Origin: Bolinopsis microptera
Taxonomy: Eukaryota; Ctenophora; Tentaculata; Lobata; Bolinopsidae
DNA length: 64,000 bases
Assembly: GCF_026151205.1 (NCBI RefSeq)
Contig: NC_087079.1
Location: 124,001-188,000 of the forward strand
Direction of reading: 5' to 3'
Positions 18,601 through 48,876 of this stretch are shown here, piece by piece; the first letter of the stretch is position 1; each line of letters opens with the position of its first letter. A program made the position numbers and the translations under genes. The notes below the pieces were generated by a model. It did no database searches. It was not told the origin of the DNA and was given only the letters and a program-made list of their open reading frames with translations.

Positions 18601-21600
18601 AACTCTTCAAATAGTTAGAGCACTATAATACAGTCAATTTCAGGGAGTATAAAAAAATTTCTTCGTCTGTGAGTGGAGATACAAGGTCAAACACAAGAAA
18701 ATATCTTCATTTGGCCAGAATTTTTGCCGGATTCTTGAATAACGGAAAATTGTATTAATAAATGTTCTTTAAACTCTTCAAATAGTTAGAGCACTATAAT
18801 ACGGTCAATTTCAGGGAGTATAAAAAAATTTCTTCGTCTGTGAGTGGAGATACAAGGTCAAACACAAGAAAATATCTTCATTTGGCCAGAATTTTTGCCG
18901 GATTCTTGAATAACGGAAAATTGTATTGATAAATGTTCTTTAAACTCTTCAAATAGTTAGAGCACTATAATACGGTCAATTTCAGGGAGTATAAAAAAAT
19001 TTCTTCGTCTGTGAGTGGAGATACAAGGTCAAACACAAGAAAATATCTTCATTTGGCCAGAATTTTTGCCGGATTCTTGAATAACGGAAAATTTTATTGA
19101 TAAATGTTCTTTAAACTCTTCAAATAGTTAGAGCACTATAATACAGTCAATTTCAGGGAGTATAAAAAAATTTCTTCGTCTGTGAGTGGAGATACAAGGT
19201 CAAACACAAGAAAATATCTTCATTTGGCCAGAATTTTTGCCGGATTCTTGAATAACGGAAAATTGTATTGATAAATGTTCTACGATGGCATCTGATACAA
19301 TACAATACAATAAGTGGAGCACAGAAAGATAAAACCGTATGTGTAACAGATTAATCTTGCCTTGTTTACTCTAAACAATGTGTAATCCTTTGTTGGGTCA
19401 TATTCCACTAAGGACTGAGGTTACCACAAACACGATGGCATCATTGTTTGGAATTGCCCTTGTACAGGCAACAATGTTACCAGATTGATAATTTGTTTAC
19501 CCATGCACAATAGAGGTACTGGAAGCTGTATATCCGGAGTAAACTTTGATGGAGGGAAAATTTTGAAAATGTCCTACCGATAGGACATTTTCAGATTTCA
19601 GCTTTCCGCGGCCCAAATTTCACTGTTTTCACTGAATTTTTCCTGAATGGCCATCTAGTAAAGTCACTGAGGATGGTACAAGACACGATTGAGGTACTGA
19701 AAGTTCTATTTCCAAAGAAAGGCTTCATAAACGGGAATTCATTAGAATAAAAGAAGAGATTTTGAGAGATTTTTTAAGAGAAGCTTTCCTGCTGTCTCCT
19801 TGACCAAAATATCGCGGTTTTGGCTAAAAAAGGACTGGAACCTGTATATATCCGGTAAAAACTTTGATGGAAGGAAAATTTTGAAAATTTCCTACCGGTA
19901 TAGCAGGACATTTTCAGATTTCAGCTTTCCGTGACCCAAATTTCACTGTTTTAACCAGTGGCGTAGTGTAGGGCCCCGCTGACCCCGCTGTGCGGAGGGC
20001 GCCATCTTTAATACTTTCAACACTACTATATAACAAATAATTTGAGGTATGAGATATGATAGACGAGCGTAAGTGTTGACGTGCAAAGGACTGCTGTGAG
20101 TGTACTTGAAGATTACTCATCCTCCTCCTTCTCATCAAAACTATTCTCATCAAAACTACTATCTGGACTGAAGGTTTTGCGTTTACAGTGTTTATTGTGC
20201 TTCTGAACATTGAACTCTTGATAATATAACTATGTCAAATAATCAGAGCTCAGACACTAGTCTCCACTCTTGTGAGCGCCCTTTAGAACATTTGAACTTT
20301 TCATTCCAGTCTGAAAAATCAGAGAACTGTAACAATTGTCTGTCAAAAGACATCAAGATTAACTTTTTAGAAAAAAAGTTGTCTTTATTGAATGAAATTA
20401 TCAGAACTAGTGATCTCATTGCTCAGTACAATGATAGTCTCATATCAGATCAAACTCAAATACAAGAACAGAGTTTTAAGTGTGAAAATTTGCTGCTAAA
20501 CTTATCAGAGGAGATTGAATGTGAGATCATAACCATTACCCCTCAGTCACACGTTGTTATCAATCAAGTAGAAGCGTTTGATGTAGATGACATTGTTGTG
20601 GAAGATGTTGTATCGGACAGTTTGTTTGTTGACAACGATGTCGTGGACAAGGTTGTTCCACAGGAGGTTGTTGGAAACGAGATTGTTATCAGTGAGATTG
20701 TTGTTCACGAGGTTATGGCAGACGAGGATGATGTGTCTGATCTCCCTGTATCTACTGCTACTGGTGAATCACGGATCAACACCCCTAAGCCCAGAGACAA
20801 ATATCCAAACTTGGTCCCTGCCCCTGTCTACGATCCTATAACACCGGGGCCAATGAATATATCTGTAACTTGCTCCCCATCACCAGTGAAACCAGTTACC
20901 CTACTAGATGATGGTCCATTCTCTAAATTTTCACTTGATCTATTAATGGAAGAACTTGAGTTCAGTCACGGTTTTAAAAACAGGAAATCGGTTTATTTTG
21001 GTGACTTTCCCTATGAGTATTCAGGTGCAACACATGACCCAAAAAGTGTACACAATGATTCCTACCTTGCTAAACTCAGCTCCTACATTAATGTGATATT
21101 ACCCAATTTCAGACACAATAGTATTCTCGTCAATCTATATGAAACTGGAGCAGAGTTCATGCCAGCTCATAGCGATTCTGAATCATGTATTGTAGAACAC
21201 TCTGATATTGTAACCATTTCACTTGGTGCGACGAGAATACTGCAAATTAGATCAAACGGCAGCAATGAAGTTGTGGGCTCTGTGCAGCTTCAGCATGGAG
21301 ATGTCTTCATTATGTCCAAATTGTCTCAGGCTGACTTTCAACATGAGATACTGCCAGACGAAATGTGTGATGAACCCCGGATCAGCATCACTCCAAGACT
21401 GATGAAGCCCCCTAGGATCACTCAGTCAACTGAGTTTGGTCTGCGTTCACCGCCCCCACCCATCCCTCATTCAGGACACAAACTGACAGACTCTTCTTCA
21501 CCTGCACTCTCAGTTTGCAAACAGTCAGCTAAAGCTTCACAAAAGTCTGTCCTATTCATAAGCAGCTCTATGTTCAGGTTTCTTGATGCGGACAAGTTAT

Positions 21601-24600
21601 CATCGTCCACTGTTAGTGCTAGTAAACTGTTTTATCCTGGGGCTGATGCCAAAGTAATGTTAAATAAACTAAAAACTGACCTACACTCTGTTCCATCCCC
21701 ATCTATTATTTATATTATGACAGGAACTAATATAATGTGAACACAGTCTATTTTGGCTCAAAGTCACTGAAGGATGCAGCGGGTGACATTAGTAATCTCT
21801 TAAATTATCTCAAGTCAGTGTATCCGAATGCAACAATTAATGTTCTCAATATTCTTCCCAGGAGTACAAAAGGCCGCAATGATGTTGTGGCAGAGCTGAA
21901 TAAGGTTATTCAGGATATGTGTAGCAAAGATTCTTGTTTTAATTACATTAGCACCCATAATTTATTTAACTATAATAGAAGTGGATTCAGGAAAGAATTT
22001 TATTTTGCCAGACCATCTGCAAAAATATCTGATAACTGTCACCTCAATACAAGCGGTGTTATTCGACTCAGTGGCGTAACTTTGCCTGTTGGCGCCCCCC
22101 TGCCGAAAAAAGCGCCCCCCTGTTGGCGCCCCTCTCCCCTTTTGGTGCCCCTCACTAAAATTGAACAAATTAGGTGATTTTAGGGGATACGCCGGTAAAA
22201 TCTCTAAAAAAATGTGTATCTAGAGCAAAACGCGCAGTTTTGCTAGTACTTTAGTTAAGTTTTCGAAATTGTCCCACATTCAAACGACGATTTGGCGCCC
22301 CCCTAAGACGGCGCCCCCCTGCACAGCGGGGTCAGCGGGGCCCTTCGTTACGCCACTGATTCGACTTGCTAAATTTCTGAAGTATTGGGCCCATAAGCAA
22401 GTTTGAATTTTCAGAAAGATTGTTACCATTTATTTCATCTAGATAAGGGATAATTACACATTGTTCCTCATGTTTATTGAAGTTTTAGAAAGTTTTGTTA
22501 TTATCTCATACAAATTTGCCAGTTCTGCAATTTATCTTATTCTGACAAGTTTATAGCAGCATAAATTGGAAAAATTTTCATGCTCTCACAGCAGTTCTTG
22601 CATTAACCCGTGCATTAGTAAAATCACAGTTTCATACCATGCCAAAAAGCTTGCAGTGGGACATTGCAACATGCAGGGAGGACTAACAGGTATGCCAAAA
22701 TGTCTTGAAATCCAAGATCTAATCTGGAAAGAGAAATTAGATGTTTTATGCCTGAATGAAACAAATCTTAAGTCGGATATTGACTCAGCCAGTCTAAACC
22801 TACCCAAGAATTTTACTTTTATCCGCAAAGACCGTTCTAACGACAATGGTCATGGGGGATGTGGCATTCTCATCAGTGAGCACATAAAGTTTAAAATGAT
22901 TCAACTAAACTTAGTTTTGCAATATGACCAAATCGAGGCTATTTGGATCCATCTTACAGATTGCAATATTTTCATCTGCTGTTTCTACAGATCTGAGTTG
23001 TTTAGTCCTCTTGACAAATTTTTAGATTATATGACAGACTGCATGATGAGTATAGGAAGTAAGAATGTTATTTGGCTGGGTGATGTAAATGTAGACCAAA
23101 ACAACATCAGCAGTATGAACTATAAGAAATTAGACATTACAATGAAAATGTTTGGAATGGTACAGGTAGTTCAGGATATTACCCGCATTGCTAAACTAGG
23201 AAACAGAATCACAAAGACCACAATCGATGTTGTCATAACAAACACTTACTCCAAGTTTCTTGACTGCAAAGTCCTTGATGATTGTATAGGAGATCATCAG
23301 GTCGTAAAGTTCATTGTCGATTTCAATGTGCATAAGGCCTCAAAATTCAAGAAGTTACTAATAAGAGATCACAGCAAAATGAATGTTACTGCTCTTAAAG
23401 AATTTTTGGAAACTTGTGATTATAGACCAATAATAGATTCAACTAGTCTGAATGATGCAGTTGATGGTTTAAACGAACATATTGATCACTACTATGATCA
23501 CTTCTGTCCAATTAAACAAATTAAGTGCCATAGTGATTACATCCATAAGCCATCTCCAGAATTTTTAGAAAGTAAGAAATTGAAAGGGAAACTTTACCGT
23601 AAATTTTTAACACACAACAAGAACAGACGTATACATCCAAATGGTCTTATACACTGTAATAAATGTGACTCATTATGGATGGCATATAAACGGCAGAGAA
23701 ACGATTCAACCTATTTGTCTAGAATTATTAGGAAGACTAACTTAGCAACAGAACTGAAAGCCAAGTGTGCCATGAATGATCTAAAGGGTGTATGGAAAAC
23801 GATAAAAACAGCATCAAATCTGCCTGTTAAAGCTAACAATATCAATAACAATCTTGATGCTGAAACCACCAATAAATATTTTGCTGAAATAGGTCCAAAG
23901 ATCCAAGCAGAAGTGCAGCTGGAAAATGAAAATGAATTTCTATCTTATCTACAAAATGAGCAGATTGACAACGAGACCAGCTTGAATAGCTTTACTGAAA
24001 TAACTGAGTCCAATATCTTAGACTATGTGGCAAGTATCCCTTGTAGCAAATCCACTAATGATCATATACCATTGAGAGTGTTTAGACAAATTTTACCTGC
24101 ATTTATTGCTCCATTAACACATCTTGTAAATTTGAGTTTATCCAGTGGCATCATGCCAAACAGCTGCAAGGTTGCAAAAGTCACCCCAATCCATAAGGAT
24201 GGTGATACTGAGAATCCTAGTAATTATCGACCAATCTCAATTTTACCGATTCTTGGAAAGTGCATCGAATTTTGTGTGAACTCCCAACTGACTCAATATC
24301 TTGATGAAAAGGGAATACTTTCAGAGCATCAATATGGTTTCCGTTAAGATCACTCTACAACTTATCTCATGTTAGATCTGTTTGATCGTATATTTACTGC
24401 TAAGAACAGTGCCAAGCATCCTGCAATTATCTTCCTGGACATCAGAAAGGCATTTGATACTGTTAACCATGATATTCTAATTCAAAAGCTGAAGCATTAT
24501 GGAATAAAAGATACTGCATTGAGCTGGTTTAGGAGCTTCCTCACAGATAGATTACAGCAAACTAGAGTTGGGAGTAGGATAAGCAGTGTACATTCATTGA

Positions 24601-27600
24601 ACTCTGGAGTGCCTCAAGGAAGTATATTAGGACCAATTCTATTCAGCATTTTTATCAATGACCTGCCTAATGCATGCCTATATTCTAAACCTTATCTATT
24701 TGCTGATGACGGTGCATTATATTTTGACAATATATCTAGAGGAAACTATGGTAACATCAAACAAGAGTTGAAATTAGTTATCAGATGGCTTCAGGCTAAT
24801 AAACTATCCCTGAATAATGAAAAAACAAAACTAATGATCCTTGACTCTAAGCCTAACCTTGATGCCATCCTTGTTGAATTTGTGATGACCTTACTTTGAT
24901 AATCTGTGAAACTAAATCCCATAAGTACCTTGGACTTATAGTTGACAGCAGATTGACATTTAATGAACATATTGATTACATTAAGAAAAAGATATCCAAA
25001 AGAATTGGTGCTATGTATAGATCAAAAAAACTTCTCCCTCTTAAGTTCAGGAAGATGTTTGCTAATGCACTTATGTTGCCACATTTTGACTACTTAGACA
25101 CCATCTGGTCAAGAACATATAAAAAACGACTAGGAGAGTTAGATATCATGTACAAAAAGGTTGCTAAAATAGCCCTAGATGTAAACATCAGAGAGAGGTC
25201 GGTTAATGTATACAAAAATATGGGATGGCTTCCTCTCCATTTGAGACGACAGGTTCATCTTAGCTCATATATGTACCGTATAATCAATGAAACATGTCCA
25301 AAGCATTTTATCAGGAAATTCTCGTATATTTCTGGTGGATCACGTGAGGCAGAAAACTGCAATCTTTATACTCCTAAATCAAGATCTCACAAGGAGTTTA
25401 ACTATCTAGGAACTAAGGCCTGGAACATATTACCAAAGTCCCTTAGAGAGTGTGACGACGTTAAGAAATTTTCTAAGTTATACAAAGAAACTCTTATGAA
25501 TATGGTGCTAACTGATGAGAATTACCAAGGGGATAACTCTTACGATAAATTCATGATCCCACCCAACACTAGCCAATGTATCTAGGCAGTTATGTTATTT
25601 CAGTTAAGTTATCTCAGTACATAAGTGAATCCAATCCAGCCCCTGCAATCAAAGTATTTCCATGCCTATTAAGCTATTACAGGAAATTAGGAACATCAGT
25701 GGAAAGGTGCACTGTCAATCATTATTGCTCCATACCTCCAGTCCTCCTGTTATGTGCAATTCTCACTGCTATGTATGCTCCTCATTTGTATCAATTATAT
25801 TGATGCTACATTGTTATAGAATATGAAATAATTTTCAACCGGTTTAATTTATTAACTTAGTGTAAATAGCAAGTTTGACAAAGGGATTACGTTTATTTTA
25901 CGCGGAGTTCGTTTAAGTTTAGTATTGTAAATAGTTAATTTGACGAAGGGAATACGTCTATTTTACCCTGAGTTATGTTTTAGTTCAATCTTGACACAAT
26001 TTTGAAATCATAATTTAATTATTTTATATATTATATGTATTGTCCATAACTAGGGTGGCCTGCTAACAGAACCATGATCTGCCTTGATTCATCCTTCAGC
26101 ACAGAGAAAAGCTCCTTTTTTTATACATTATGATTACAGAGGATCTGATATTTAGATATATATTGCTGTGCTGTAAAAATTGACTTTATTTATTTATTTA
26201 TTTATTTAGGGTGGCGCCAAATCGTCGTTTAAATGTGGGACAACTTTGAAAAATTTAACTGCAGTACTAGCAAAACGTTTCGATCTAGAAACACACTTTT
26301 TAAAAGATTTTACCAGTTTATCCTCTAAAATCACCTAATTTGTCCAATTTTACGTTTCTACTCTAAGAGGGGGAGGGGCGTTAACAGGGAGGCGCTTTTT
26401 CAGCGGGGGGCGCCAAAATGCAACGTTACTGCACTGGTTTTGACTGAATTTTTCTTGAATGATCGTCTATAAATATCACTGAGGATGGCACAAGACACGT
26501 TTGAGGTACTGGAAGTCAATACCTCAGTGCAGTGTGCGGTGTGTGTTCGATAAATAAAGTTCAACTTACTTAATCCCCTGAGTGGTCGACGGCAATGCAG
26601 CTTCAGCGACTTGTACAGTATCATGATTTGCATCGTATTTAATGCTCACTCCTTGAGCTGTTGAAGGGTCGAACAGAAATCCCTCAACTTTAGATCCGGA
26701 TCGCATAAATCCCGCAAACTTCATACTGGGCCTAAAAGAGGAAATAGCTGTGATACAGTGCAATTATTATGTTTACTAGTCTATAATCTGTTACATCAAA
26801 AAAAGGGGGGAAAAATCAAATGAATTTAAGACATCAGTTGATAGAACAGAATCTAAATTTGTAATAATTTACTCACGAGATATCGATAGGAGAAGAGCCA
26901 ATGTTATCATTTTTGCCCCAGTAAACATTGTTACGAGTGACCCTTATCATCTTTTCATACGACAGGGAGGCGTAGAAGAGGAGACCATCTTCTTCGTGGT
27001 GTGGTGTATCCAGTGTTAACATTCCTGGAGGAGAATATACATGATTTAAATTTAATTTGTTTTCAACAAAATGAACTACAGTGTTTTTAGAATCTTGATA
27101 TTATCCTTTTAAAAGTAATGTCAACTCACTGTCATAATACAAAGTAACACTTGTGCCACGTCGACAGTAGTCACATCTATGCAGTAAACGCTTGACTATT
27201 GTTGCAGGCAGGCTCATCAAATAGAATAGATGAGTTTTTACTGCCACATTCGAAACAAATCTATTTCATTTATGTCTGTACCCGAATGCCTACCTGTTAA
27301 GATATCCCAATGTCTGTACCGGTTGGTACTGTGGTATGTTACCACCTCCTCTCCGCATATCACAGGATCCACCGTCACTGTGTCCTCCTCATTGAACTTG
27401 CGTCTCCACATGATGGCACCAGTTTTTGGGTGCAGTGCTGCAAGGATGTTCTTCTTGGTAATCACTACAATAGCACGGGAGTCTGCAATGCGGTGCTCCA
27501 CTGCTCCCACATATCGCTGGTGCCTGAATAGAGTTGAATTTTAGATATGTACTATACAATCTAGATCCAGATACTTTCAGTGACTTAAATTATTTCTCGA

Positions 27601-29355: not shown

Positions 29356-29684
29356 TACTTTAACATGGTTGCCCATATTAATTAAGCGAACTAAGGTGGT
29401 CTCAACAAGTATGAGACAAGAAATCAAATTTATAACAATGAAATGCTCATTTTGTGAATTAACTTTCTGTCTTTGACTGTTAATTGGGTTGTGAAAGGAT
29501 AGGCAACAAACGGTACAAGGAATTCGCGGGCCTGAAAGCTTTAGTACACACTAAAACGCTAGTCAAGATGAGTTTTTGGAGACAAGGCTCTTACTTGGAC
29601 CAGATAACAACTGTTGGGAAAGATAAATTGTTGTTTCTAAAGAATGGCAGTTTTGTTGTGACAGAAGGTCGACACTCAATTTTT

Positions 29685-30190: not shown

Positions 30191-30254
30191 CAATTTTTTT
30201 CATTCAAGGCTATAAAATGCAACTTGGAGGTGAAGGGCTGGTGGAATATTACAT

Positions 30255-33200
30255 ACATGTTACATGGCGAGATCTCCATCCAAAAGGATTAGTCTGCGTC
30301 GACTGCGTCATTACTTTGTATTATACAACTTCGGCGGGTAACATTTCTCCATCCCTTTCGGTCTGCAGCTAATCTTCTCATACAATCAATCGTGAGTCCA
30401 TTACGATCCAATCTCTGCTCAGCATCCTCAATGAATACATCATTTAAGCTCTTCCTAGGCCTGCCTCTTGATCTCTTCCCATGCTTGGGTTTCCATTCAA
30501 GTAAATAGTTGGGCAACCGATCTTCAGGCATTCTACTGACATGTCCAAACCAACGCAGCCGTTTTGTTGTTATTATGTCAGCAAGGGCAGTTATTGATGC
30601 CCTTCTTAAAACATCCTCATTACTTACTCGATGGAACCACCTCACTCTCAGGATTCTTCTTAAGCAGTACTGATGAAAAGACTCCAATCTTCTTGTCTGC
30701 ACTTGAGTCGTGTTCCATATCTCACATCCATAGGTCAGAATGGTAAGAACAGCTGCGATGTAGATTCGCATTTTGTTGTTAATGCTTATGTTCTTATTCT
30801 TCCAAATGTTGTTGAGTTGGTTAAAAGCTCCGGTTGCTTTTCCAATCCTGACACTTATTTCTTTATCAATCTTGCCATCTGATGTAATTTTGGCACCCAA
30901 ATAAGTGAATTGAGTGACCTGCTTTGCAGAGTTTCCATCGACAGTTATATCTATGGTCCTATTCTCTGGGAGTGGGTGCTGCGATGTATCTTTCCCAATG
31001 ACCATGATCTCTGTTTTCTTTGCGTTCATCTTTAAACCCCCAAGTCCACAGTATTTCGCAATATTGTCCGTAGTTTCTTGCAGTCCTTCAACAGTGTCAT
31101 CCATTCCTGCGATGTCATCAGCATAGTCAAGATCAATGACACATTTTTCCGGTTGTCTGGAACTTTGTCTGTACTGAAGTGTAAAACCACGGGATATATT
31201 CTTAAACTTCTCTGCAAGTTCTAATCCCCAGTTAAGTACAAGATTAAAAATAGGGGGCCCTTGCACATCACCTTGTCCAGTCCCCGAATCGACATCAAAC
31301 CATCTTGTCAATTCTCCATTGACACGAACTGCACTTTCAGTTGCTCTAAAGAACGCTTTGAAAACATTGATATATTTTGTCGGAAGACCATAATGTTCAA
31401 AAGCTTTCCAAATAAAGTCACGATTGATTGAATCAAAAGCAGCTTTAAAATCAATAAAGTTTATGTACAAAGGGACGTTGAATTCTATACAATTGTGTAT
31501 TATACAATGAAGTGAGTACAGCTGATCTATACAAGAACGGTTTCTCCTGAAACCACACTGATTCTCTCTGAGTAATTTTTCAAGCCCATTACTCAGTCTT
31601 TTTAACAACACAATTTGGAATAACTTTGATATAGTTGAGCGTAAAGTTATACCTCTGTTATTGTTGCAATATGTGAGGTCCCCTTTCTTTGGGATGATGG
31701 TGATTATTCCTTTTCTCCAATCATTAGGAATATCCTCACTTTTCCACACAGTTTCAAAAAGATCCTTTAACCAAGGCAGAAGTCCAGGAGAACCGTACTT
31801 TAACTGCTCATTTGAAATTTCATCAATTCCAGCACTCTTGTAGTTCTTCAACTTCTTGATAGCTTCCTCAATTTCAAACAAGGACGGTGGTTCATCATCA
31901 TTACTAAGGTATTCAAAAGAAAGTAACTTTTCATCCTGATCCAATATAGAGAAATCCACCGCATTTGCTGCTGGCGTCAAGAGTTCTTCAAAATATTCGG
32001 CCCAGCGATGTGATTGAGCTTCGGGATCTGATATAAGCGTCCCATTCTTATCCCGCACTGCCGCAGATCTGTTTACCCTCTTGTTTGTTAGGGATTTTAT
32101 TTTCTGCCAAACATCTCTTTGTTGACCCTGCTTGGCAGCATCTTCTAATTCCTCAGCTATTCTAACAGCCCAAGCATTATCATCTCTTTTACAGTTCTGC
32201 CTAACAAGACCGTTAATCCGTGAGTACTTAGCACGGTTCTCAGCAGTACTGGGTTTCTTTTTAATCTCCCCTCGTTCTTTTAGGAGATTCTTAGTATCCC
32301 TTGAGAGATGTTCTGTTCTCTTTTTCCGGCCCCTTTCACCCAGAACTTCAAATGAAACATCAGTTATTATATCTCTTAAATTTTGCCACTGTTCTTCTAA
32401 AGGAGAGTTTTCATGCTCCTGATCGTTGTTATAGTACTCTTCAGCTATTCTGTTACTATATTCCTGGCTCTTAGATCTATCACGCAGGTGCTCTAAAGCA
32501 GGCTGTCTTACACGCTTCTTTCTTTTCTGAGGACACTTAAGTTTAATAGATACATATCCTCTAACCAGATAGTGAGTAGTATTTATATCTGCTCCTCTCA
32601 TGCTCCTGACATCAAGCAAAGAATGGCTCCATCTCGTCGAAATACACATATGGTCAATTTGAGTGACGGTGTTACCATTTGGGGATCTCCATGTTGTCTT
32701 GTGGATATCCTTGTGTTCAAAGAGTGTGCCTCCAATCGTCAGCTGGTGCATAGTACAGAAATCTAGCATCCGTTTTCCGTTATCATTTGATTCTGTGTGA
32801 TATGAGTGTTTTCCTATAACACCAGGGTGAGCATCAGTATCCCTTCTAACACAAGCATTAAAATCTCCTAAAACTATTTTTATATCATGAGCAGGTAGTC
32901 CCGATTGAACATCATTCAATTCCTTGTAGAAAGAGTCTTTTAAACTGATTTCTGCATCCTCAGTTGGAGCATACACAACTGTAACACTAATGTTGATGTG
33001 TTTGCTATGTAAACGGGCAGTCATAACCCGTCCTGATACAGGGGTGTATGATATGAGAGTATTCTTCATCTTTTTGGAAAGAACAACACCAACTCCTTCT
33101 CTCCGTACTCCATCGCTCCTGCCAGAATAAACCAAAACAGCACCATTGCTCAAAGTCTGAGTTCCTGATCCAGCCATATGTGTTTCAGTTACCCCAAGGA

Positions 33201-38098: not shown

Positions 38099-41000
38099 GG
38101 TTTTTTTTTATTAAATACTTTTCAAATTTTACAGAGTACAGCAATAGATGAATATAAAATAGAATCGTTCAAAATATCGCCCCCATCTGTAAAATATGAT
38201 GGGCACCCAAACACGGTAAACACATAGTGAACTATGTCCGCAGTAACTTGGACCCATTACATCGAATTAATCTAAATCCAAAAATTTATGAAAAACTATT
38301 TAATAACAAACAAATCCATGGTGAATAACTGTGGATATATAGTCAAAATTGGTATTTCAATACGTCAAATTCCAGATACATTAGATACAGGTCTGATATG
38401 GTCATTAATGTGTGAGGTGTGCGGGTGAAGTGTGATATGATGTTGAAAGTATAGGAAGGTAGATAAAAAATTAATAAAACAAAAATAATAATAATATGGG
38501 GAGAAAAGAGACTAGGCTAGGCTGTTGTTTCACTATCCAATAAACATTTCCATAGATGCTTAGTGACCTCAGCTTTGAAAACACTAGTAGACACAATCTG
38601 TCTTACCTGTAAAGGGAGTCCATTCCACAGTATATGAGTTCTGTAGAAAAATGATTTTGCCAGTGGGCTATTTGAGGTACATAAGGTGTGTGAATTCTGA
38701 CTTAACTTAGGTAAAATTGATGACACAATAGACAGACTGTCGAGGTGGCAACGTCTTAGTCGAGAAGTGCCCTGATATAAAGTGAGATAGTGAGGCAGCG
38801 ATACAGGAATTAGATTGTTCAGAACTTTGTGGAAAAAAATAAGATCATTCAAGTCAAACTTTTGAGACAAAGGGAGAATGTCGACAAGCTTGCACTTTTT
38901 GACATATTGCTCAGGTGGATAACTGCGGCCCTCTTCAGACAGAATCCATTTAATAGCTCTCTTTTGGAGACTTTCTAATTTATCACTAAGTGATTTATTA
39001 CAAGGGCGCCAGATTATGGAACAATTTTCGAATTGGCTACGAACTAGGGAGAGGTAAAGCGCCCGGCGACGTTTCAGATCAATGACAATATGGCCATCTC
39101 TTCTGACCATACCAAGTTGTTGGCAGGCCTTAGTATAAATTCTGTCGCACTGACTATTCCAACTTAGCTTAGGAGTAACATCGACTCCAAGATCTTTTTC
39201 TAACTCTACATACACAAGAGGAGAGCCATCAAGATTATATGCGAATGGAGGAGATAAAGATGGTTTTCCTGAAACAATAAGCACTTTACATTTTGCTGGA
39301 TGGAATCGCATTTTGTTTCTAAGTGCCCAGTCAGAGAGATAGTCTATATCCATTTGTAAATTGGTATTATCAGAAGATGAATGTATTTTACGCCAGATTT
39401 TTGTATCATCGGCATACAAAACAATATCAGTATTATCTGAAAGGCCAAGAGGAATATCATTGATAAACAATACAAAAAGTAAGGGACCAAGGATAGAGCC
39501 CTGGGGGACACCAGAATTAACTGAGAGGGTAGATGACATCTCATTACCAATAACCACTCTTTGGTAACGGCCTTGAAGGTAATTGGTAAGAAATTTGAGA
39601 AGTGTACCATCAATGTTATATAAGGTCTTTAGCTTATGAAGAAGGATATCATGATTTACAGAATCAAATGCCTTAGCAAAATCAAAATACACAACATGAT
39701 TGATAATGTTTTCGTTAAGAGACAATGCCAGGCTATCACAAAAATCAACCATATTGGTTGTGCATGACTTGTGCTCTAGAAAACCATGCTGCCTGGGATC
39801 AAGAAGGGTACTTGTCAAAGAAAGCAGTTTACGTTTAACAATGCGCTCAAAAACTTTCATGACTAAACAAGTAAGGGATATTGGTCTATAGTTTTCAACC
39901 TCACTTTTCTTACCTTTCTTAAATATTGGGACAACATTTGCAAGTTTCCATTCTTGTGGAATGTAGCCGCTGTTGTAGGATCCACGAAAAATGCATGTTA
40001 GAGGGTAAGCTAAACCTACGGAACAATTTTTTAGAATTTTACCGTGTATGCCATCTGGTCCCTGGGCTTTATTTGAATTAATATTTGAAAGAAGCTTACG
40101 AACATCCCGATGATCGAAGTCAATATCAAAATCAACATCATTGACATAGGAGATGTCAGTGTCATAAAGTGAAGGATCCGAAAACTGGTTATAAAAGAAA
40201 GAATTGAAAAGTTCAGCTTGATCTTTGGGATTGAACCGAAGCTGTCCAGAATAACTAACACAATTAGGAATACGGCAGGAGTTAGATTTATACTTAACAT
40301 GTGACCAAAACTTCTTAGTTATAAGCGCTGGATCATCACTATTAAAAAGATTATCTCTTATTTTGGCTGATGAGAGCCTCTTAAAATCTTTACGGCTAGT
40401 AACAAACTTTAACTCATCAGAAATAGAACCAGAAATTTTAAATTTAGCTCTGAGTCTATCTTTTTTACGGCATGAAGAAAAAAGTTCACTATCGAACCAC
40501 GGGGGTTGGAACTCTGATTTAATAATTACTTTAGGAATATGTATATCAACTAAATTCATAATGCAGTCTTTAACTAACTTCCAAGACGAATCAGGATCTA
40601 GGCATTCTAGGACTTGCCAATTAATCGAGCATAATTCACGATTAATCATGTCCCAGTTTGCTTTCTTAAAATTATAGATTTTACGTTTAGGAGTTTTCTT
40701 ACGGGAAAAGGAGCTTTTAATTGAAAAAGTGACAGGAAAATGATCAGATTTGCACACGGAATGAGGATCACAGACATTCAAGTTATCGATTGTGTTATCA
40801 TAATTACTGAGAAGAATGTCTAATGTATTACCACTTTTATGGGTGGGTGATGTGATCAACTGGGAGAGAGAAAGATCACTGAAAGAGTCTATGAAGGATT
40901 GCTCAATAGGTACGGTACTGGATGAAGATAGCCAGTCTGTATGGGGGAGATTAAAATCACCAATAACATAGATTTTAGGGGGATTCTTTTTGGAAACTAG

Positions 41001-43475
41001 CTTGCGAATATAACTAACTATGACATCATGATTAGGTAACCCAAGAGTTCCTACTCTATAACAAGTACAGATTACAATACTCTCTTTGTTAGGAAAAGAA
41101 ATTTTAACGGCAAGCATTTCTGCACCTAGGCTAACTGGTAGTCGGGTTGTAGTGGCGTCGAGATCAGACCGAACAGCCAAAAGAACACCACCTCCATTTT
41201 CCCTAAACTTTTTAGGGTTATTAGGATCTTGAGGATGAGTCTTTCTCGTGCGGTCATTGCGGAAGATTTCATATTGAGAAGAAGGAAAGATTTCGTTGCT
41301 AGAAATAGATTTTTTGAGCCAAGTCTCATTTAGGGCAATTATGTCAGGCTGCTCTATGTTAGCAAAGGATTGAAGTTCGGAAATCTTATTACCATCAAGA
41401 AGGGGATGGGAGGAGCTTAGGTTACTGAAAGGAATGAGACCTTGGACATTTTGGTAGAGTACAGATAGGGAGTTGGGACCTGGATTAAGCATAGAAGGAT
41501 TAACAAGAGTTATCAAAAGAAAGTTAAGAGAGAAAACCCAAAGAATGAATAAAGAGACTAGACGCCTGAGGCGGCTGGAATACTTGACTCTATTCATCTT
41601 ACCAGGGAGAAGAACATTTCTTATAAACCATGAGGAGATAATTACAAAGAAAAGTTTGATGTGGGAGCAAGCAAGAGATGGTATAAGATAACGTGGGCTG
41701 TCAAGGAGTAGAGAGGAATGATTATTAGAATCTAGGGGGAATACGGTGTTCATGGACCTAACCGTGGAGAGAAGAATTGGGAGAAAGTAAGTCATGATGA
41801 GAGAATAGAAGAGAAACATATGATTATGATAATTGTAGTTGATGTGTGGGGTGTATGGAGACTTAAATGTGTAAATTTTGTTAGGTATAAACGTGTTGAT
41901 ATGTATAAGTGCATTTCTTGACTGTGTACGAGGCCTTTTGCATGCAAAAAGACCTATTCTAAGTCTAAACGATTCATTGTCTAACATATTGGAAAATGGA
42001 CAGTGACCGAATGTACCTGAAATGGGAGGCATAAAATTGAGAAAAAGATTAAATCAGAGATTTGTTTGAGTTTTAATTTTAGGCGCAACGTCTTAATCAA
42101 AATATTAAATGGAAGAAAAGATCAAAGATTTAAATTCCCAGAAGATTATTTACAACCCTGTCAAAACTGTGTTCGTTTACAACAAACTTAAGCCAAGTGG
42201 ACAGTAAACCTACTCCTCTCATGTTGAGATGAAGCCAATCATGGTATAGAAGTTCATTACATGATCTAAAGTCTCGAGTTAAAAAGACTGAGAAACAGTC
42301 TAAGAACACGCAATTATTATTTAGGCATAAGTCTTTAAGTAGATTATTAAAATCTAGAACATTCTTTGCTATGTAGGAATATAAACATTTAATAGGAAGA
42401 CAACATTGGATAATTATAATTGCAGCGGGAAATAACTGCTTAGTGGTGTCAATTAATTCAGTAAGATACTTCCTAAGGAACTGAACCCCATACTTAGAAT
42501 GTTTAATGTCATTTGTACCAACACTCAATATAATTTTTTCAATATCGTCAGCTTCTGCAGCTGCATGAGTTTTATGAAAATTATGAATGTTTTCAGTGAT
42601 GTCTCTAATTTTTGCACCACTTTGAGACACATTGATTACTTTCCTTCCCCGGAATCCCAACTTATTTGTCCGTACGAATTTTGTCATTGACGTACCAAAC
42701 AGGACAGTGGTTTTCCTGCTCTTCGGTTTTCTTGGAGTATTTCGGTAGTAAAGGGTTGGTGTTGAGGTGGTGGTGGGCGGCATAGGAATTGTAGTGCGGG
42801 CAATCTGCTCCTTGACTACATTTGTATCTGTCTTCGGTATCTGGCAGCGAAAAGATAAGCTATACCGAGTCCCCTTAACTGAGCTCTCTGCACGAACCTT
42901 GTGAAGACAATATTCCTGACACCCCGGTTTCATAATATACAAACTACAGTCCTTTGGGGTGATATAGCATTTACTGTTACATCGCTTATCCCCATTTTCT
43001 GGAATTATGTCGATGGTCCTCTCAGCTCCAAATGAAACTACATAAATACCTTGCGACTGGTCAAGAGACACCTCGTCGTCGTTGTGGTACCTAGTTGCAC
43101 AAGAACCAGACTTGTACATGCTTGCTAGGCATGAGTTTAGCTTGCAGCCAAACTTGGAGTTGATATCATGCATAAGCTCTGATATCCCAGGATAATTTAA
43201 AATATCGATTGGCTCCTTAGTCGTGGTGTGTCCATTTGAGGAAGACCATACATATTCTTCTCCAGTGGAAGTGAGCCACTTTGTGGCAGTTTTCACAGCA
43301 GTTTGCTTGGCCATAAGTGTTTCAAGTTCAGACATCAACGTGCCATGTTGAACACTCTTGTTCTGAACAAAATCTGAATGCAACTCCAAGAAGTCCTCGC
43401 ATTTAACAGAATTTCTCTTAAGTTTCATGACATTCTCAACACTGGCCTTGAGAGCTTTCAGCTCATTTAATGAAA
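38099..43475 (-). mobile_element. LINE B, CR1/L2-like retrotransposon, intact frames, inserted in LINE C
   Basis: About 5.4 kb with ORF1 (43521-42130) and ORF2 (42032-38517) both open, ending in an A-rich tail (T run at 38101-38109 on the plus strand). The 5' end lies within the LINE C ORF2 frame, so the first residues of the ORF1 frame are borrowed from LINE C and this copy may be slightly 5'-truncated. It is the youngest element of the nest. I found no clean target-site duplication. Confidence 0.85.
38517..42032 (-). CDS. LINE B ORF2: N-terminal hydrophobic region, NPGP motif, endonuclease, reverse transcriptase (1171 aa, intact)
   Basis: Residues about 72-90, 124-141 and 158-177 are three strongly hydrophobic stretches, which is unusual for a LINE ORF2. 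NPGP at 183-186 (41475-41486) lies just before the endonuclease start (LSVLYQNVQGL). NPGP is the end of 2A ribosome-skipping peptides, but the upstream D-V-E residues are not kept. Endonuclease motifs: LNETWL, IGDFNLP, NTLDILL, KSDHFPV. RT motifs: [44 protein letters not shown]. The C-terminus has the HILWNGLP segment. The frame is complete, so activity is conceivable. The first 60 or so residues before the hydrophobic region may be a non-native extension. Confidence 0.92.
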   Translation of the reverse strand: MPPISGTFGHCPFSNMLDNESFRLRIGLFACKRPRTQSRNALIHINTFIPNKIYTFKSPYTPHINYNYHNHMFLFYSLIMTYFLPILLSTVRSMNTVFPLDSNNHSSLLLDSPRYLIPSLACSHIKLFFVIISSWFIRNVLLPGKMNRVKYSSRLRRLVSLFILWVFSLNFLLITLVNPSMLNPGPNSLSVLYQNVQGLIPFSNLSSSHPLLDGNKISELQSFANIEQPDIIALNETWLKKSISSNEIFPSSQYEIFRNDRTRKTHPQDPNNPKKFRENGGGVLLAVRSDLDATTTRLPVSLGAEMLAVKISFPNKESIVICTCYRVGTLGLPNHDVIVSYIRKLVSKKNPPKIYVIGDFNLPHTDWLSSSSTVPIEQSFIDSFSDLSLSQLITSPTHKSGNTLDILLSNYDNTIDNLNVCDPHSVCKSDHFPVTFSIKSSFSRKKTPKRKIYNFKKANWDMINRELCSINWQVLECLDPDSSWKLVKDCIMNLVDIHIPKVIIKSEFQPPWFDSELFSSCRKKDRLRAKFKISGSISDELKFVTSRKDFKRLSSAKIRDNLFNSDDPALITKKFWSHVKYKSNSCRIPNCVSYSGQLRFNPKDQAELFNSFFYNQFSDPSLYDTDISYVNDVDFDIDFDHRDVRKLLSNINSNKAQGPDGIHGKILKNCSVGLAYPLTCIFRGSYNSGYIPQEWKLANVVPIFKKGKKSEVENYRPISLTCLVMKVFERIVKRKLLSLTSTLLDPRQHGFLEHKSCTTNMVDFCDSLALSLNENIINHVVYFDFAKAFDSVNHDILLHKLKTLYNIDGTLLKFLTNYLQGRYQRVVIGNEMSSTLSVNSGVPQGSILGPLLFVLFINDIPLGLSDNTDIVLYADDTKIWRKIHSSSDNTNLQMDIDYLSDWALRNKMRFHPAKCKVLIVSGKPSLSPPFAYNLDGSPLVYVELEKDLGVDVTPKLSWNSQCDRIYTKACQQLGMVRRDGHIVIDLKRRRALYLSLVRSQFENCSIIWRPCNKSLSDKLESLQKRAIKWILSEEGRSYPPEQYVKKCKLVDILPLSQKFDLNDLIFFHKVLNNLIPVSLPHYLTLYQGTSRLRRCHLDSLSIVSSILPKLSQNSHTLCTSNSPLAKSFFYRTHILWNGLPLQVRQIVSTSVFKAEVTKHLWKCLLDSETTA

Positions 43476-43521
43476 ACGAGTTTAAACCCCGTTGCAGCGG
43501 GGTTAATAAAGTAGTTATCAC
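42130..43521 (-). CDS. LINE B ORF1: AlkB-like dioxygenase plus SGNH hydrolase (463 aa, intact)
   Basis: A helical N-terminus is followed at residues about 80-228 by an AlkB-like 2OG-Fe(II) dioxygenase: M-x-Y at 135-137, H146-x-D148, distal H207, R219-x5-R225. A Thr/Pro linker leads to an SGNH hydrolase at 271-450 with block I (GTSM 276-279), block III (GTND 335-338) and block V (D428-x2-H431 in HDWLHLN). The block I nucleophile serine is S278. Both domains are intact in one frame. CR1 ORF1 esterases are known; dioxygenase fusion is what I consider unusual. The first 15 or so residues come from the LINE C junction; a shorter start (for example Met32) is possible. Confidence 0.88.
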   Translation of the reverse strand: MITTLLTPLQRGLNSFSLNELKALKASVENVMKLKRNSVKCEDFLELHSDFVQNKSVQHGTLMSELETLMAKQTAVKTATKWLTSTGEEYVWSSSNGHTTTKEPIDILNYPGISELMHDINSKFGCKLNSCLASMYKSGSCATRYHNDDEVSLDQSQGIYVVSFGAERTIDIIPENGDKRCNSKCYITPKDCSLYIMKPGCQEYCLHKVRAESSVKGTRYSLSFRCQIPKTDTNVVKEQIARTTIPMPPTTTSTPTLYYRNTPRKPKSRKTTVLFGTSMTKFVRTNKLGFRGRKVINVSQSGAKIRDITENIHNFHKTHAAAEADDIEKIILSVGTNDIKHSKYGVQFLRKYLTELIDTTKQLFPAAIIIIQCCLPIKCLYSYIAKNVLDFNNLLKDLCLNNNCVFLDCFSVFLTRDFRSCNELLYHDWLHLNMRGVGLLSTWLKFVVNEHSFDRVVNNLLGI

Positions 43522-46500
43522 GTCGGGGTGACTTTTGAAATAAATTGTACATCGGTATTGGAGTGTGAAGTTTGATTATTTTAAACATTTCAAGTAGACA
43601 GTGGTACTTATACAAATTATGCACGCAGAGTATTTTGTTTCTGCTGAGAAGGGGTTTACTTGATTCTCGTTTATAGAAGTCGGCTCCAAGTTTTTGGGAT
43701 CCAATTGGGCGGGTTCTAGCACATGTTTTGAACTTATTACTGTATGCCTCTTGATCACCAAATAGAATACGAGTGCACTTTTTTTGAATTTTAAATATTG
43801 GTTCAAGCCTATTGTTCGATATGCCTCCCCACACTGAGATCCCATATCCTAGATGAGATTCGAAGAGGGTGTGGTAGAGGTCATTATACAGCTCTTTAGG
43901 TATAAATCTTCTCATACGGCAGAGTTTACCGACTTCACACTTTAATTTAGAACTAAGATATGCAGTATGAGGTTTCCAGTTAAGGTTTTTATCTATAATA
44001 ACGCCGAGGAATTTAGTTTCATCAACACGTTTAATGACTGTGTTATTCAACGTTAAAATAAGATCATTACTATTACTACTACTACTAGTTACATCCTTCT
44101 TTCCTGGTGTAAAGTGAATGTAACAGCATTTCTTGATGTTAATGTGGAGAAGATTGCATTCCATATAATTGTAAACAGAATTCATTATAGTATTAGCTTT
44201 TTGGTAGAGATTCTGGACAGATTTGTCGACTACAAATATATTGGTGTCATCAGCGAAAAGTATAAATTTTCCTAGGTCTGATGAGTTATAGATATCGTTT
44301 ATGTAAATTATAAACAGTAGCGGTCCTAAAACACTACCTTGTGGTACTCCACAAATAACAGGGAGTTTATCAGATTCCTCACCTAAAACTGAAACGTACT
44401 GCTGTCTGTTAGATAGGTAACTTCCAATAAGCTCGTTTGCGTTACCTCTTATACCATATTTGTCAAGTTTTATGAGAAGTTTATCGTGACTGATAGTGTC
44501 AAATGCCTTTGATAAGTCGATAAAGATACCTAATACATGTTGCTTTTCCTTTATATGGGAGTTTACATAGTCAACTGAGTAATTAAGGGCGTGGTTAGTT
44601 GAGTGACTCTTCCTAAAACCAAACTGGTTCTCAAACAAAACGTTCTGCGACACAAGAAAACTGTACAAACGGGAGTAGATTACTTTCTCAAATAACTTTC
44701 CGAACACAGCTAGGGTAGATACTGGCCTATAGTTTTCGAGATATTCTGTACCGTCTTTTTTGTATATAGGGCTAATTTTACCAATTTTCAGTCGGTCTGG
44801 AAAAGTTCCATTTCTCATGTGTTCATTAAATAATACTGACAGGAGTGGGCTTATAATCTTAGACGTTCGTTTGATGACGTGAATAGGGATGTCACTAGCT
44901 TTTCCATTCTTGAGTTCGCTAATGATTTTCTCTATTTCTTCTGGTGTACAATCGCTGAGAAATATACTTGAGGTATTTGGCCTTGGTAAGTAGTCCGTAA
45001 AGCATTGAATTGGACTTAGTCTAATTTGACCGGTTGTACTGTATGATTCATTCAACTTAGGGGCAAGAGATACAAAGTAATTGTTAAATTCGTTAGCTAT
45101 AATTCTACGGTTCATTATTTTCTCATTATTAATAACAAACGGGGGTTTAATTTCTCGTTTCCCTTTGCCGCGTATCTTATTGATTAGTTGCCATGTTTTC
45201 TTACTGTCACCTTGAACTTCATTAAATTTACCCATATTGTACGAAGTTTGAGCCTTTTCACGTATAACTTTGAGTTCTTTTCTATAATATTTATAAGTTA
45301 AGTACTCACTGCGCTTTTTGTTACATACTGCGCAGTGACAGAAGCCACCTTTTGTGTCAGTATCTCCTAGATTACACTTGACTTTGCGAGCTTTGACCCA
45401 GTTTTCGTATAGTTCGTGACAGTGATTTATTGATGTTATAATTGCTGGTGTAATCCATGGATTGTTTTGCATAGTGCGTTTTGTACATTTCGGGGTTTCT
45501 AACTTGAAACATTCGTCAAAAGCAACGTTAAATGTGTCAGCAAAGGTATCAAAACAATTTATTACAGTGTTATCAAGACTATTTGATAGTTTGTCGGTGA
45601 ACTTATCTACGTTAGAGTTACAGTAGTCATAGAACTGTTCATACTTAATCTTGCAATCGTTCTGGTCAAGGTGTGTGTTGAGTGCTAAGAATATGGGGTG
45701 ATGATGTGTGATTTTGTCTTTGAATGTGCCAGATGTTATAATGTTGTCTAAATCATTGGTAATGATGTTATCGATGCATGAAGGAATACAGCCGGGTTTT
45801 TCATGGGTCATTACAGATATGAGAGGATAGAAGCCTCGACTGTAAAGAACGTGTTCATATTTAGCAACCTTGTTGCTGTCGCCGTGAAGATTGATGTTAA
45901 AGTCACCAGCTATATACGAGTGTCTGGGGACTTTGTCCAGAGTGTCGGCTAGTTCACTTAGCGCTAAGTCAAAATTGCCACTCGGAGGGCGGTATAAAAC
46001 TCCAACAAAGGTGCTTGAGTTACCATTGTTGAATCTTAAAAATAGGATTTCTAGGTTTTCACTTACATAGGAGAGGGTATTATCGATTGTTGCATTTAGT
46101 GACTGGTGGATATAAATTGCAACTCCGGTGCCCTTCTTTTTCTCTCGAAAGGTTGCTTGGTAAAAACTATTGTATTCGGTTAATTGATACAAGCTACTTA
46201 ATTCAGGTCCTACATTTGTTTCAGCAAGTGCAATTATGGAAAACTTTTTGTTATATCGGCGAAGATCTATACACATAGTATCAAAGTTACTTTTGTTACC
46301 GTCTATGTTTTGAAACATCATTGACATTTGACCTTCGGTTAAAGTTTCTAGAGTTTGATTAATTTGACTTCTGTTAAGCTGAGAACAGCAGTTTAAAATT
46401 TGCGAGAGCTTAGTTATCGTATCGTCTAGATCGATTTCTTCGTCGGAGATATCATATTTGAACGGGTTGTATCGTTTAACAGCAAGATTTACACATGTAT

Positions 46501-46651
46501 TGCAGAGAAAGTTACCGCATAAATCGGTATTGACAATATTGTAGCATTTATGATGAGTTGCATGGTTACATTCGGAACACTCGACTATGGCTTGGCCCAC
46601 ATAGATACCCTTGCAGCAGTGTTTACATACCTCTTTAGTTAGAGTAGTCAT
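43463..46651 (-). pseudogene. LINE C ORF2: PHD-like finger, endonuclease, reverse transcriptase, cut by LINE B
   Basis: It starts at the ATGA overlap with ORF1. Residues about 9-53 form a PHD/RING-like zinc finger (CKHCC, CSEC, HHKC, CNTC). The endonuclease follows (FQNIDG, LAETN, AGDFNIN, CIDNII, THHHP), then the RT (YRPVSTLAVFGKLFE, FIDLSKAFDTISHD, GVPQGSVLGP, LFADD). The last residues after INPAATG belong to LINE B sequence; the true C-terminus is at 37910-38098. Without B the frame would be uninterrupted as far as I can see. Confidence 0.9.
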
Positions 46652-48876
46652 GACGGTTGGTAGCCGTCAGGATCACCAGATACTCGTTTATCAGCAGGAA
46701 GAGAGCGTGCAGTTATGTCACGAAATGATGTGGAGTCCACCTGATTCCCCCCTCGTCCAGCTCTGCGTCTGTCTCGACCACCATTAACTCTAAGAAGAAT
46801 AGTATTTTTAATGATTGCTGCTAACTTTGCAACCCCCCTCCAATTGAGGTGTAAGTAATCAGGTTTCTGGAACTTCGTCAACCTTTTTGACAAGTGTTGG
46901 CTTAATAGCCCGTTCTCATCAGCAAAGCTTGGAAACCCTTCTACCAGTCTCACACCAAAGTTGAAAGGGAGAAGCTGGGTTTGAATCAGATAGTTAAAGA
47001 AATTGACTCTTCTATTTAAATCAATACATTTAGTTGGCAGCAGCGGACATATATAAACATTAGTTTTTTTATTGACAGCTTGAATTTCAGCAATTTTACT
47101 AGTAAATTTATTGAACACTTGTTTGATGTCAGATGGAGTTTTGACATTATCCTGCCTAATATCATTGAGTCCGCAGAGAATGACAGTGTTTTTGTAGCCG
47201 CAGGATTCGTATGGGTCAATGTGGTCTACAGTAGGTGCGAAGACTTGTTTTCCAGGAAGGAACTTTCCAAAGGATCACTTAGGATCAAGTCCAAATTTAA
47301 GTCCACCAGTGTTCGAATCTCCCATGATGCATGTAGAAGCACGGTTTAGAGCACTAACAGATCTGAGGGTCACAGAGTATCGGACACCGGAGTCGACAGA
47401 TCCTGGTTCAATTCTGTGTTCGTACAAATCCTGACTTGCCCTGGTCATAGTGTATAGTGATCGTGGTGGACAAGACTGGTTGTGATAGGGTTCTGTGGTG
47501 CCAGTCTTGCTGAAAGTGACTGTGCAATGGTGACCTAGTGAAAGTGTATGTACTGATGAGTCAGGGTGAATGAGGGGTTCGTTGTCTGAGTGTTGTGGAA
47601 GGAAGCTTAAGTGACCATCATACCGATTGATGAGAATGCTGTTGACAGGTGGAGAGTTTGGATGATCATTGTTCAGTTGTGTTATGAGTGATTGGAGTTG
47701 GTCTGGCAGTTGGTCGGATGAGGGTAATGATTTTGTGCCAGTGTAGTGATATCTTTCTCCAAAAGCCAGAACAGATCGTCCATTCTCATTCTTGAACTCA
47801 GATGTGCGAGAATCAAGCAGTTCTATGAGATCCTTCTCTGTCTCCTCATCAATAAAATCGAGAGTGTGTTTAGAGACAGGCGGGCGACTGTGTGGGGGCA
47901 GCTGGGTTACAACCTGGGTGTTGAGCTCTTGTAATCCAGGGATGGTCAGTGGATGCTCTGAGGAATGCTGCAGATTTGCTGTTGATTGCTTCAGCTCCTG
48001 CTTGCATACCTCTCTGAGCTCTTGTGACACCCGTTCAAGGAGCTTGTCAGATTGATCTGATGTTGGTGAGGTGGTCATGTCTGATGATAGGGATGTGACT
48101 TGCTGTTTGAGTTCATTTAGTTGGTTGGTGAGTGAGTGGAAAGTCTTGTCATGAGTTTGTAAGGCAGTTGTGAGGTTTTCAATTGTGGTGTTGAGTGGTG
48201 GTGTGGGTGATTTATCCAGGGTAGTGGCCAACTGGTCTGAAAGGAGCTTTATATCTGAGTCTAAGGATTTCCAGGGCTGGTCTTTCAGGAGGAGGTGCTT
48301 AAGGCGTTGGTCAAATTGGCCAAGTGTGTCAATTCTGTTACTGAATTGAACAAAGTCAATATCCTTAATGAGCTTGCAACAATTGGCTAAGGGTTCTAGT
48401 TGTGATGAAATGAGTGCTGTTTCTGCTTCCAGGTTTGTCTGCTGTAGTGATAAAGTGTTTCTGCAGACGTGACAGACGTCAACTTGGGTGGATATAGTAG
48501 TAATAGGTGATACAAAACAAAAGGGACAGGGCCATTGTGTGAGATCATTGAGCATCTTACTATTTAGTCCATTAAGGCCTACGCAGTTCGCATGCCAGTA
48601 CTGTCCACACTTGGCACAGTCTAGTTTCCACGACGATTCCAGTGACTGGTCGCAGGGACATTTCCTCTTATCTCTGTGGGAGTGCTGGATGGCTGGCATT
48701 GCAATGTGTGGTGTAAGGTCCAGCTGGGGCGCTATTGAAGAAGCATCTAACTCTGATAGGGATGATGATGTGTGCTTCTTAGCAGTTTTTGTTTTATGTT
48801 GAGCTGGTGTAGAACTGGAACTGGAACTGGCGGAGAGGGCTTTGTTTCTCCCTTGCCTCTTAGCAATACCAGACAT
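46648..48876 (-). pseudogene. LINE C ORF1: PHD finger, coiled coil, AlkB-like dioxygenase, SGNH hydrolase (one in-frame TGA)
   Basis: Residues 73-120 form a PHD finger (CPCD, CAKC, HANC, CPFC) with an extra C-x2-C at 135-138. Residues about 150-300 are helical/coiled. About 360-507 is an AlkB-like domain: N-x-Y at 417-419, H429-x-D431, H487, R499-x5-R505. Directly after, at 518, comes SGNH block I (GDSN). A TGA at 47275-47277 stops the frame, but the same frame continues with block III (LCGLNDI) and block V (DYLHLNWRG) to TGA 46648-46650. This would be a protein of about 742 residues with one nonsense codon. The PHD plus SGNH combination is known for CR1-group ORF1 proteins; AlkB between them is the novelty candidate. 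Confidence 0.88.

Follow-up and report, generated by a model that had tools for sequence, protein, structure and literature searches.

AlkB-bearing LINEs in a Bolinopsis microptera contig

A 64,000-nucleotide stretch of the ctenophore Bolinopsis microptera (contig NC_087079.1, positions 124,001 to 188,000), referred to here as the window, carries three long interspersed nuclear elements (LINEs), designated A, B and C. In each, the first open reading frame (ORF1) is predicted to join an AlkB domain of the ALKBH2/3 type to an SGNH esterase, and an endonuclease-reverse transcriptase (RT) ORF2 lies downstream (the pieces of the LINE A ORF2 fall below the Pfam cut-off). An initial annotation, made from the sequence alone, had proposed an AlkB domain in all three ORF1 proteins; this is confirmed by Pfam for A and C and by an ALKBH3 match and a family profile for B. 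All three window copies are damaged, and open copies of the A, B and C families are present elsewhere in the genome searched, a 264.65-Mb assembly of 232 contigs that contains the window. Sixty-six loci fetched from this genome are labelled L001-L066.

LINE A (20232-25585, forward strand) begins with an ORF1 at 20232..21740, a 508-residue frame open from 20214 that was recognised as an open reading frame and by Pfam, and that encodes an N-terminal part, the AlkB domain and the start of the SGNH domain. At 21740 the frame stops prematurely, with a frameshift in SGNH as the apparent cause; the 21 other copies that span residues 1-500 (98-99% identity) have frames of 624-632 amino acids. The AlkB domain (20883..21413), with HSDSE, a distal H and R-x5-R, matches PF13532 (2OG-FeII_Oxy_2) over a core at about 21012-21398 (E 3.1e-17; 63.9 bits against a curated cut-off of 31.2). 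Among PDB chains the family profile ranks ALKBH3 first (3.4e-27) and ALKBH2 next, and the sole named organism among the LINE A homologs is Mnemiopsis leidyi. The putative SGNH region, placed approximately at 21546..22075 by reading the sequence, has its second part out of frame in the window copy. An open relative, L059, gives PF13472 at 8.5e-5, below the cut-off, and the family profile matches the ZfL2-1 esterase 4c1b (3.7e-7). ORF2 (22557..25585, forward) is split into three frames; the first gives Exo_endo_phos (1e-4) and RVT_1 (0.004), both below the Pfam cut-off, and the remaining pieces were assigned by eye.

LINE C occupies the reverse strand from 48876 down to about 37910 and hosts LINE B. 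Its ORF1 (46648..48876, reverse) encodes a PHD finger, a coiled-coil-like part, the AlkB domain and an SGNH region, interrupted by a single in-frame stop at 47275-47277; three other copies (L010-L012; 98-99%) each retain one 746-residue frame. The AlkB domain (47362..47760) has N-R-Y, HSDNE, a distal H and R-x5-R, and matches PF13532 across this interval with an E-value of 2.8e-13 (51.0 bits, against the same cut-off). A family profile built from 16 relatives, with the window copy excluded, ranks ALKBH2 first (8.3e-9). The PHD finger (48517..48660) is weak in Pfam (0.017-0.03), and the family profile matches DIDO1-type chains, which we take to be PHD, at 9e-5. The candidate SGNH region (46648..47355, left edge approximate) contains GDSN, GxND and DxxH blocks, presumably SGNH motifs, and scores 0.021 for PF13472, below the cut-off. 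The family profile matches a DUF459 protein and PatB, assumed here to be SGNH members, at 3-4e-4, and a GDSL-like lipase at 0.065. ORF2 (43463..46666, reverse) has a Cys-rich N-terminal part followed by the endonuclease-RT (RVT_1 2.8e-36); its 3' end is broken by LINE B, and the remainder lies at about 38100-37910.

LINE B (reverse strand, from 43486 to about 38100) is nested in LINE C, and its junctions identify it as a 5'-truncated insertion within the 3' part of the LINE C ORF2. Its ORF1 (42130..43486, reverse) therefore lacks the first codons, and the letters upstream are those of LINE C. There are 25 other near full-length copies (93-98%) without stops; truncated and stop-bearing copies are also present. 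The AlkB domain (42835..43407) has HNDDE, a distal H and R-x5-R. Serine replaces the asparagine of N-x-Y (S-M-Y), so the M-x-Y strand that the initial annotation gave as an alternative to N-x-Y does not exist. In Pfam, the AlkB region of this ORF1 alone yields a sub-threshold PF03171 match (0.0048) and no PF13532, a domain that many LINE B homologs carry. The single sequence matches human ALKBH3 in PDB at 7.7e-8, and the family profile ranks ALKBH3 first (3.5e-18), then ALKBH2. The SGNH esterase domain (42166..42720; PF13472 3.3e-12) matches 4c1b at 3e-5 as a single sequence and at 1.7e-12 as a family profile. ORF2 (38517..42053, reverse) contains RVT_1 (1.2e-28) and Exo_endo_phos_2 (9.6e-13). 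Two B-like groups, represented by L061 and L062, have a B-type ORF2, as checked via their downstream pieces.

The SGNH region thus follows AlkB in A, B and C alike, as had been proposed; the match is strong in B and weaker, below the Pfam cut-off, in C and in the LINE A relative. The description of the three proteins as sharing little else needs more care, given that this region is common to all three and that the AlkB domains are detectably homologous, with pairwise identities of 31% for A-C (7e-16), 24% for A-B (8e-9) and 25% for B-C (3e-5). The combination of esterase and PHD, taken by itself, suggests a place for these elements in CR1/L2 (Jockey superfamily).

Fold and active site of the AlkB domain

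Structural models of the LINE A and LINE B domains adopt the AlkB-type double-stranded beta-helix. ALKBH2 and ALKBH3 rank first among the structural matches of both models, with ALKBH2-DNA complexes at the top in each case, and ALKBH5 or FTO is the closest match of A and B neither by sequence profile nor by structure. Sequence and predicted fold therefore point to the ALKBH2/3 type over ALKBH5/FTO.

This bears on the main alternative, an epitranscriptomic eraser that would remove host-placed N6-methyladenosine (m6A) from element or cellular RNA and so evade silencing. It owes its standing to a precedent in orchid Gypsy elements, whose AlkB protein, according to the available text, demethylates m6A in single-stranded RNA in vitro (PMC9289625). 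Specificity could also be shifted by the variable residue after HxD. AlkB D135I is on record as crystallised with m6A DNA, and the LINE C profile gives weak matches to N6-methyladenine DNA demethylases (0.002). However, the A and B profiles match ALKBH3/2 and AlkB, with no ALKBH5 or FTO at E <= 0.01, and fold Z is lower for ALKBH5/FTO than for ALKBH2 (about 16 against 24 for the A model, about 18 against 23 for the B model). Moreover, human L1 retrotransposition is reportedly aided by m6A and suppressed by ALKBH5 (PMC7873242, in the part available), so that m6A removal need not benefit a LINE. We regard an m6A eraser as unlikely.

Active-site conservation was counted over homologs of B (93), A (62) and C (23) plus each query, using the rows aligned at each site. 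The first H and the D of HxD are present in 62/62 rows for A, 89/89 for B and 20/20 for C, and the distal H in 62/62, 93/93 and 19/19. The first arginine of R-x5-R is kept in 62/62, 93/94 and 19/19 rows, respectively, and the second in 62/62, 94/94 and 19/19. The H, D and R positions are thus near-invariant across related elements in all three families. The N-x-Y strand is looser: its tyrosine occurs in 58/62 rows for A, 66/89 for B and 15/20 for C, and its asparagine in all 20 rows for C, 31/62 for A and 4/89 for B. The initial claim that every iron- and 2-oxoglutarate (2OG)-binding residue is kept stands for the metal ligands and the arginines, and is too strong as a whole because this asparagine varies. 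Two positions past the metal-binding Asp a Glu is conserved (62/62 for A, 88/89 for B, 20/20 for C), and the residue between them, which we take to line the base pocket, is variable.

These counts also speak to the idea that the AlkB fold has been retained as a non-catalytic nucleic-acid-binding module. ORF1 needs RNA binding, yet the three ORF1 frames have no RRM or CCHC match in Pfam at E <= 1, and the loss of the N-x-Y asparagine in B would suit such a role. Against this, the near-invariance of the metal ligands and of both arginines extends to proteins with as little as 27-30% identity to the query, which binding alone would not demand, and a binding-only module seems improbable.

Selection on the AlkB domain

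In C-like elements, the ratio of nonsynonymous to synonymous substitution rates (dN/dS), summed over 14 non-independent pairs of two subfamilies whose dS was usable, is 0.044 for PHD, 0.28 for the linker, 0.127 for AlkB and 0.164 for SGNH. For AlkB elsewhere, it is 0.17 in the B-like pair L057-L058, 0.11-0.13 in A-like pairs at dS 1.7-2.2 (for example, 0.13 at dS 1.67 for L006-L060), 0.05 (dS 1.11) in the pair L046-L047 of the 777-residue LINE type, and 0.17 in a pair of Helitrons (L039-L040), both described below. In these informative pairs (0.05-0.17) the AlkB domain is under purifying selection in several families. Residue invariance and dN/dS together give indirect support to the earlier claim of selection for catalysis, although catalysis itself, like the substrate and the benefit to the element, is something we infer from sequence.

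A passenger role, in which AlkB would be a captured host gene fragment without benefit or a chance resemblance, is very improbable. The window copies are indeed broken. However, open copies are numerous in several LINE groups and in Helitrons, and the low dN/dS values and the conserved active site already contradict it. Chance resemblance is ruled out by the Pfam match of LINE A (E to 3e-17) and by the family-profile matches of A and B.

Distribution in the genome

The AlkB fusion is no local oddity; it reaches beyond the three LINEs of the initial annotation, to many LINE families and to Helitrons. At least 151 PF13532 matches occur in the genome, a lower bound since 150 of 587 candidates were scored, and nearly all of those listed lack internal stops. 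In 50 of the 66 fetched loci, AlkB is followed by 1.4 kb or more of sequence. By BLAST, a LINE endonuclease follows on the same strand in 40 of these, a Helitron Rep region in two and neither in eight, in a sample that is C-family-rich through fetching, contains a few overlaps and includes the window's own LINE C (L009). The eight comprise three loci with a standalone ALKBH-like frame (L001-L003), two with Helitron-type AlkBs (L063 and L005, the latter coinciding with L039), L016, L032 and L042; the BLAST test had missed the ORF2 of L042, which was recognised by eye. At L003 the AlkB frame (1063-1950) is followed about 700 bases on by a separate SGNH frame (2662-3438), and the 1.5 kb beyond the AlkB match yielded no LINE endonuclease.

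L046 and L047, the pair of the 777-residue type, together with L065 represent a distinct LINE type, with AlkB at the N-terminus of ORF1 and a long middle part after it. Their endonuclease differs from that of A, B or C. SGNH-like motifs are apparent by eye in these three loci, with no SGNH match in Pfam.

Beyond the window there are six giant frames, 2225-3388 amino acids long, that each contain both PF13532 and Helitron_like_N, as judged by identical contig, strand and frame length. These polyproteins (L039:1303-8679, L040:383-8998, and C3, C9, C10 and C12 of G000) have N-terminal SGNH and AlkB parts ahead of the Rep-helicase part, with linkers that are repetitive and rich in proline and alanine. 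In L039 and L040, SGNH precedes AlkB, opposite to the order in LINEs. L039 combines a Rep-like domain (Helitron_like_N 3.7e-22) and a PIF1 helicase (1.3e-20) in one protein and is thus a Helitron; it also matches AlkB at 6.6e-22 and, below the cut-off, SGNH at 1.3e-6.

The occurrence in Helitrons, together with the ALKBH2-DNA complexes that head the structural matches of A and B, would suit another possibility, in which AlkB acts on insertion-site DNA or complementary DNA, repairing or unmarking a double-stranded substrate as an ALKBH2-like enzyme, and not on the RNA template. The ALKBH2 and ALKBH3 matches are almost tied, however, and strand preference depends on hairpin residues; this possibility is rather doubtful.

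Relationships among mobile AlkB domains

In an AlkB tree of 26 rows, 19 of them from LINEs, the Helitrons share a side of a 98/95 branch with 17 of the 19 LINE rows. The remaining two belong to the 777-residue type; they fall on the cellular-type side, which has four such rows including human ALKBH3, and are the LINE rows nearest to the cellular-type ones. The AU test rejects a single clade that holds all LINE AlkBs but no Helitrons (p-AU 0.0067). Once the 777-residue type, a group picked after viewing the tree, is set aside, a Helitron-free LINE clade is no longer rejected (p 0.40). It therefore appears that AlkB has either passed between LINEs and Helitrons or been captured repeatedly. LINE and Helitron rows jointly form one side of an 87/89 branch, so that a separate capture by the 777-residue type is not borne out, and the tree neither rejects nor establishes that every mobile AlkB goes back to a single origin.

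AlkB and ORF2 trees agree as to groups A, B and C and the pairs L045/L048 and L064/L066, but within B and C their branching differs. L042 groups with A by AlkB (85/89) and with C by ORF2 (90/87), a possible exchange of ORF1 between LINE lineages that is only a lead, given long, partly filled rows. A recent viral origin was also considered. Scans of viral contigs, for B with its family profile and for C and A with individual domain sequences, yielded no relatives, and the structural matches of the A model in BFVD, to AlkB domains in the polyproteins of many viruses, give no direction of transfer.

Other features of the window

An apparent foreign insert in LINE A (22094..22306, no strand assigned) has an inverted relative at 26206-26413, just beyond the element. 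The two are GC-rich and share inverted repeats of 77, 50 and 45 nt with 78-90% complementarity; they probably represent a small repeat family. Two RT-bearing stretches on the reverse strand (30289-33243 and 59562-60548) match DUF6451 below threshold and show no match to AlkB. An open frame at 14420-15064 (reverse) encodes a short repeated peptide unit, and is probably a minisatellite. Two related forward-strand frames (57748-58314 and 63172-63795) have no Pfam match and, in our view, presumably resemble the N-terminus of an MRP-type ABC transporter.

Comparison with known systems

Features already described for the ORF1 proteins of LINEs include RNA binding as well as PHD and esterase domains. 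With SGNH in ORF1, weakly matched in C, the window LINEs count as esterase-type (type IV). They share this esterase with ZfL2-1, which has the esterase-type ORF1 of CR1/L2 (PMC3905857; PDB 4c1b), and differ in the additional AlkB domain; the word "dioxygenase" does not occur in that paper. According to one of its figure legends, transposon esterases are found in chordates, cnidarians and sponges (PMC3905857). A survey of 448 Jockey-superfamily elements, in the text available, lists PHD, RRM, CCHC, transposase-22 and esterase domains, with esterase ORF1s in vertebrate groups only and no occurrence of AlkB (PMC4120745).

Among the matches listed in full-text PMC literature, AlkB is reported for neither a LINE nor a Helitron; that scope excludes Repbase reports and the majority of subscription journals, where a prior description is possible. 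The nearest precedent is found in orchid Ty3/Gypsy elements such as Gypsy_Pa_2799, retrotransposons that likewise encode an AlkB-family (2-ODD) oxygenase in which the residues for metal and 2OG are conserved (PMC9289625, as far as its accessible text goes). Those are plant long terminal repeat (LTR) elements with AlkB as a separate ORF2, ALKBH5-like and active on m6A in vitro, whereas the window LINEs are non-LTR, carry AlkB inside ORF1 next to an SGNH esterase, and have an ALKBH2/3-like domain of sequence-predicted function. Plant RNA-virus replicases also place AlkB in an RNA-copying parasite, for which protection of RNA against methylation has been proposed, but in a viral replicase without RT or SGNH (PMC544882, in part). 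A platyfish Helitron has a captured SGNH hydrolase, as here, with no occurrence of AlkB in the accessible text (PMC4021074), unlike the frames described above in which SGNH and AlkB join Rep-helicase. Human ALKBH2 and ALKBH3 share with the ORF1 AlkBs the fold and the metal and arginine residues and are their best profile and structure matches. They are standalone cellular repair enzymes, whereas the ORF1 domains are fused and often have the N-x-Y asparagine replaced.

Possible functions

ALKBH2/3 character, fusion to ORF1 and sharing with Helitrons fit demethylation of the element's own single-stranded nucleic acid. The reading preferred here, which we believe and doubt in equal measure, is that the ORF1 AlkB would be an active ALKBH2/3-like demethylase acting on that nucleic acid and keeping the template readable. 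The ORF1 protein would coat the element RNA, as LINE ORF1 proteins do. Lesions of the m1A, m3C and m1G type block reverse transcriptases. The AlkB part would most likely remove Watson-Crick-face lesions such as m1A and m3C from the bound strand by oxidative demethylation, thereby unblocking reverse transcription. Helitrons copy via single-stranded DNA, and the domain they carry would have the same job of keeping a single-stranded intermediate readable. The substrates of ALKBH3 include m1A, m3C and m1G, mainly in single-stranded DNA or RNA (PMC10816986, available part). The SGNH part is probably aimed at lipids or membranes, by analogy with the lipid target suggested for the ZfL2-1 esterase (PMC3905857, available part).

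Several observations weigh against a template-demethylating AlkB. The models match ALKBH2, a double-stranded DNA enzyme, as well as ALKBH3, and a single-strand preference is not distinguished. The 2OG-contacting asparagine is mostly Ser or Thr in the B rows, and, because the residue between the metal-binding Asp and the conserved Glu varies, base pocket and substrates may differ between families. Additionally, AlkB dN/dS is 0.66 among close B copies (28 pairs from seven fetched copies and the window, mean dS 0.019) and 0.39-0.78 in three near-identical A-like pairs at dS 0.01-0.02. These close-copy values reflect few changes and no support is drawn from them; young copies are expected to drift once inserted.

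A broader proposal is more tentative, though it deserves consideration: AlkB, mostly with an SGNH esterase, may be a weapon common to unrelated mobile elements in this animal lineage, in many LINE families and in Helitrons, passed between classes or multiply captured, and serving to clear single-stranded RNA or DNA intermediates of methyl groups that block copying or that the host has placed as marks. That AlkB is found in RNA elements of the copy-and-paste kind as well as in rolling-circle DNA elements points to a common pressure on such intermediates. LINEs with their own AlkB suggest cleaning or unmarking of their own genetic material. Base demethylation is not among the ORF1 domains in the available text of the 448-element survey (PMC4120745), and the LINE AlkB may add a natural enzyme for clearing blocks to reverse transcription. 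With a LINE-encoded AlkB under selection, it would become possible to test directly if retrotransposition is limited by methylation of RNA or DNA. If the proposal of a shared AlkB weapon is true, it would reveal an unseen nucleic-acid-methylation front in the conflict between hosts and transposons.

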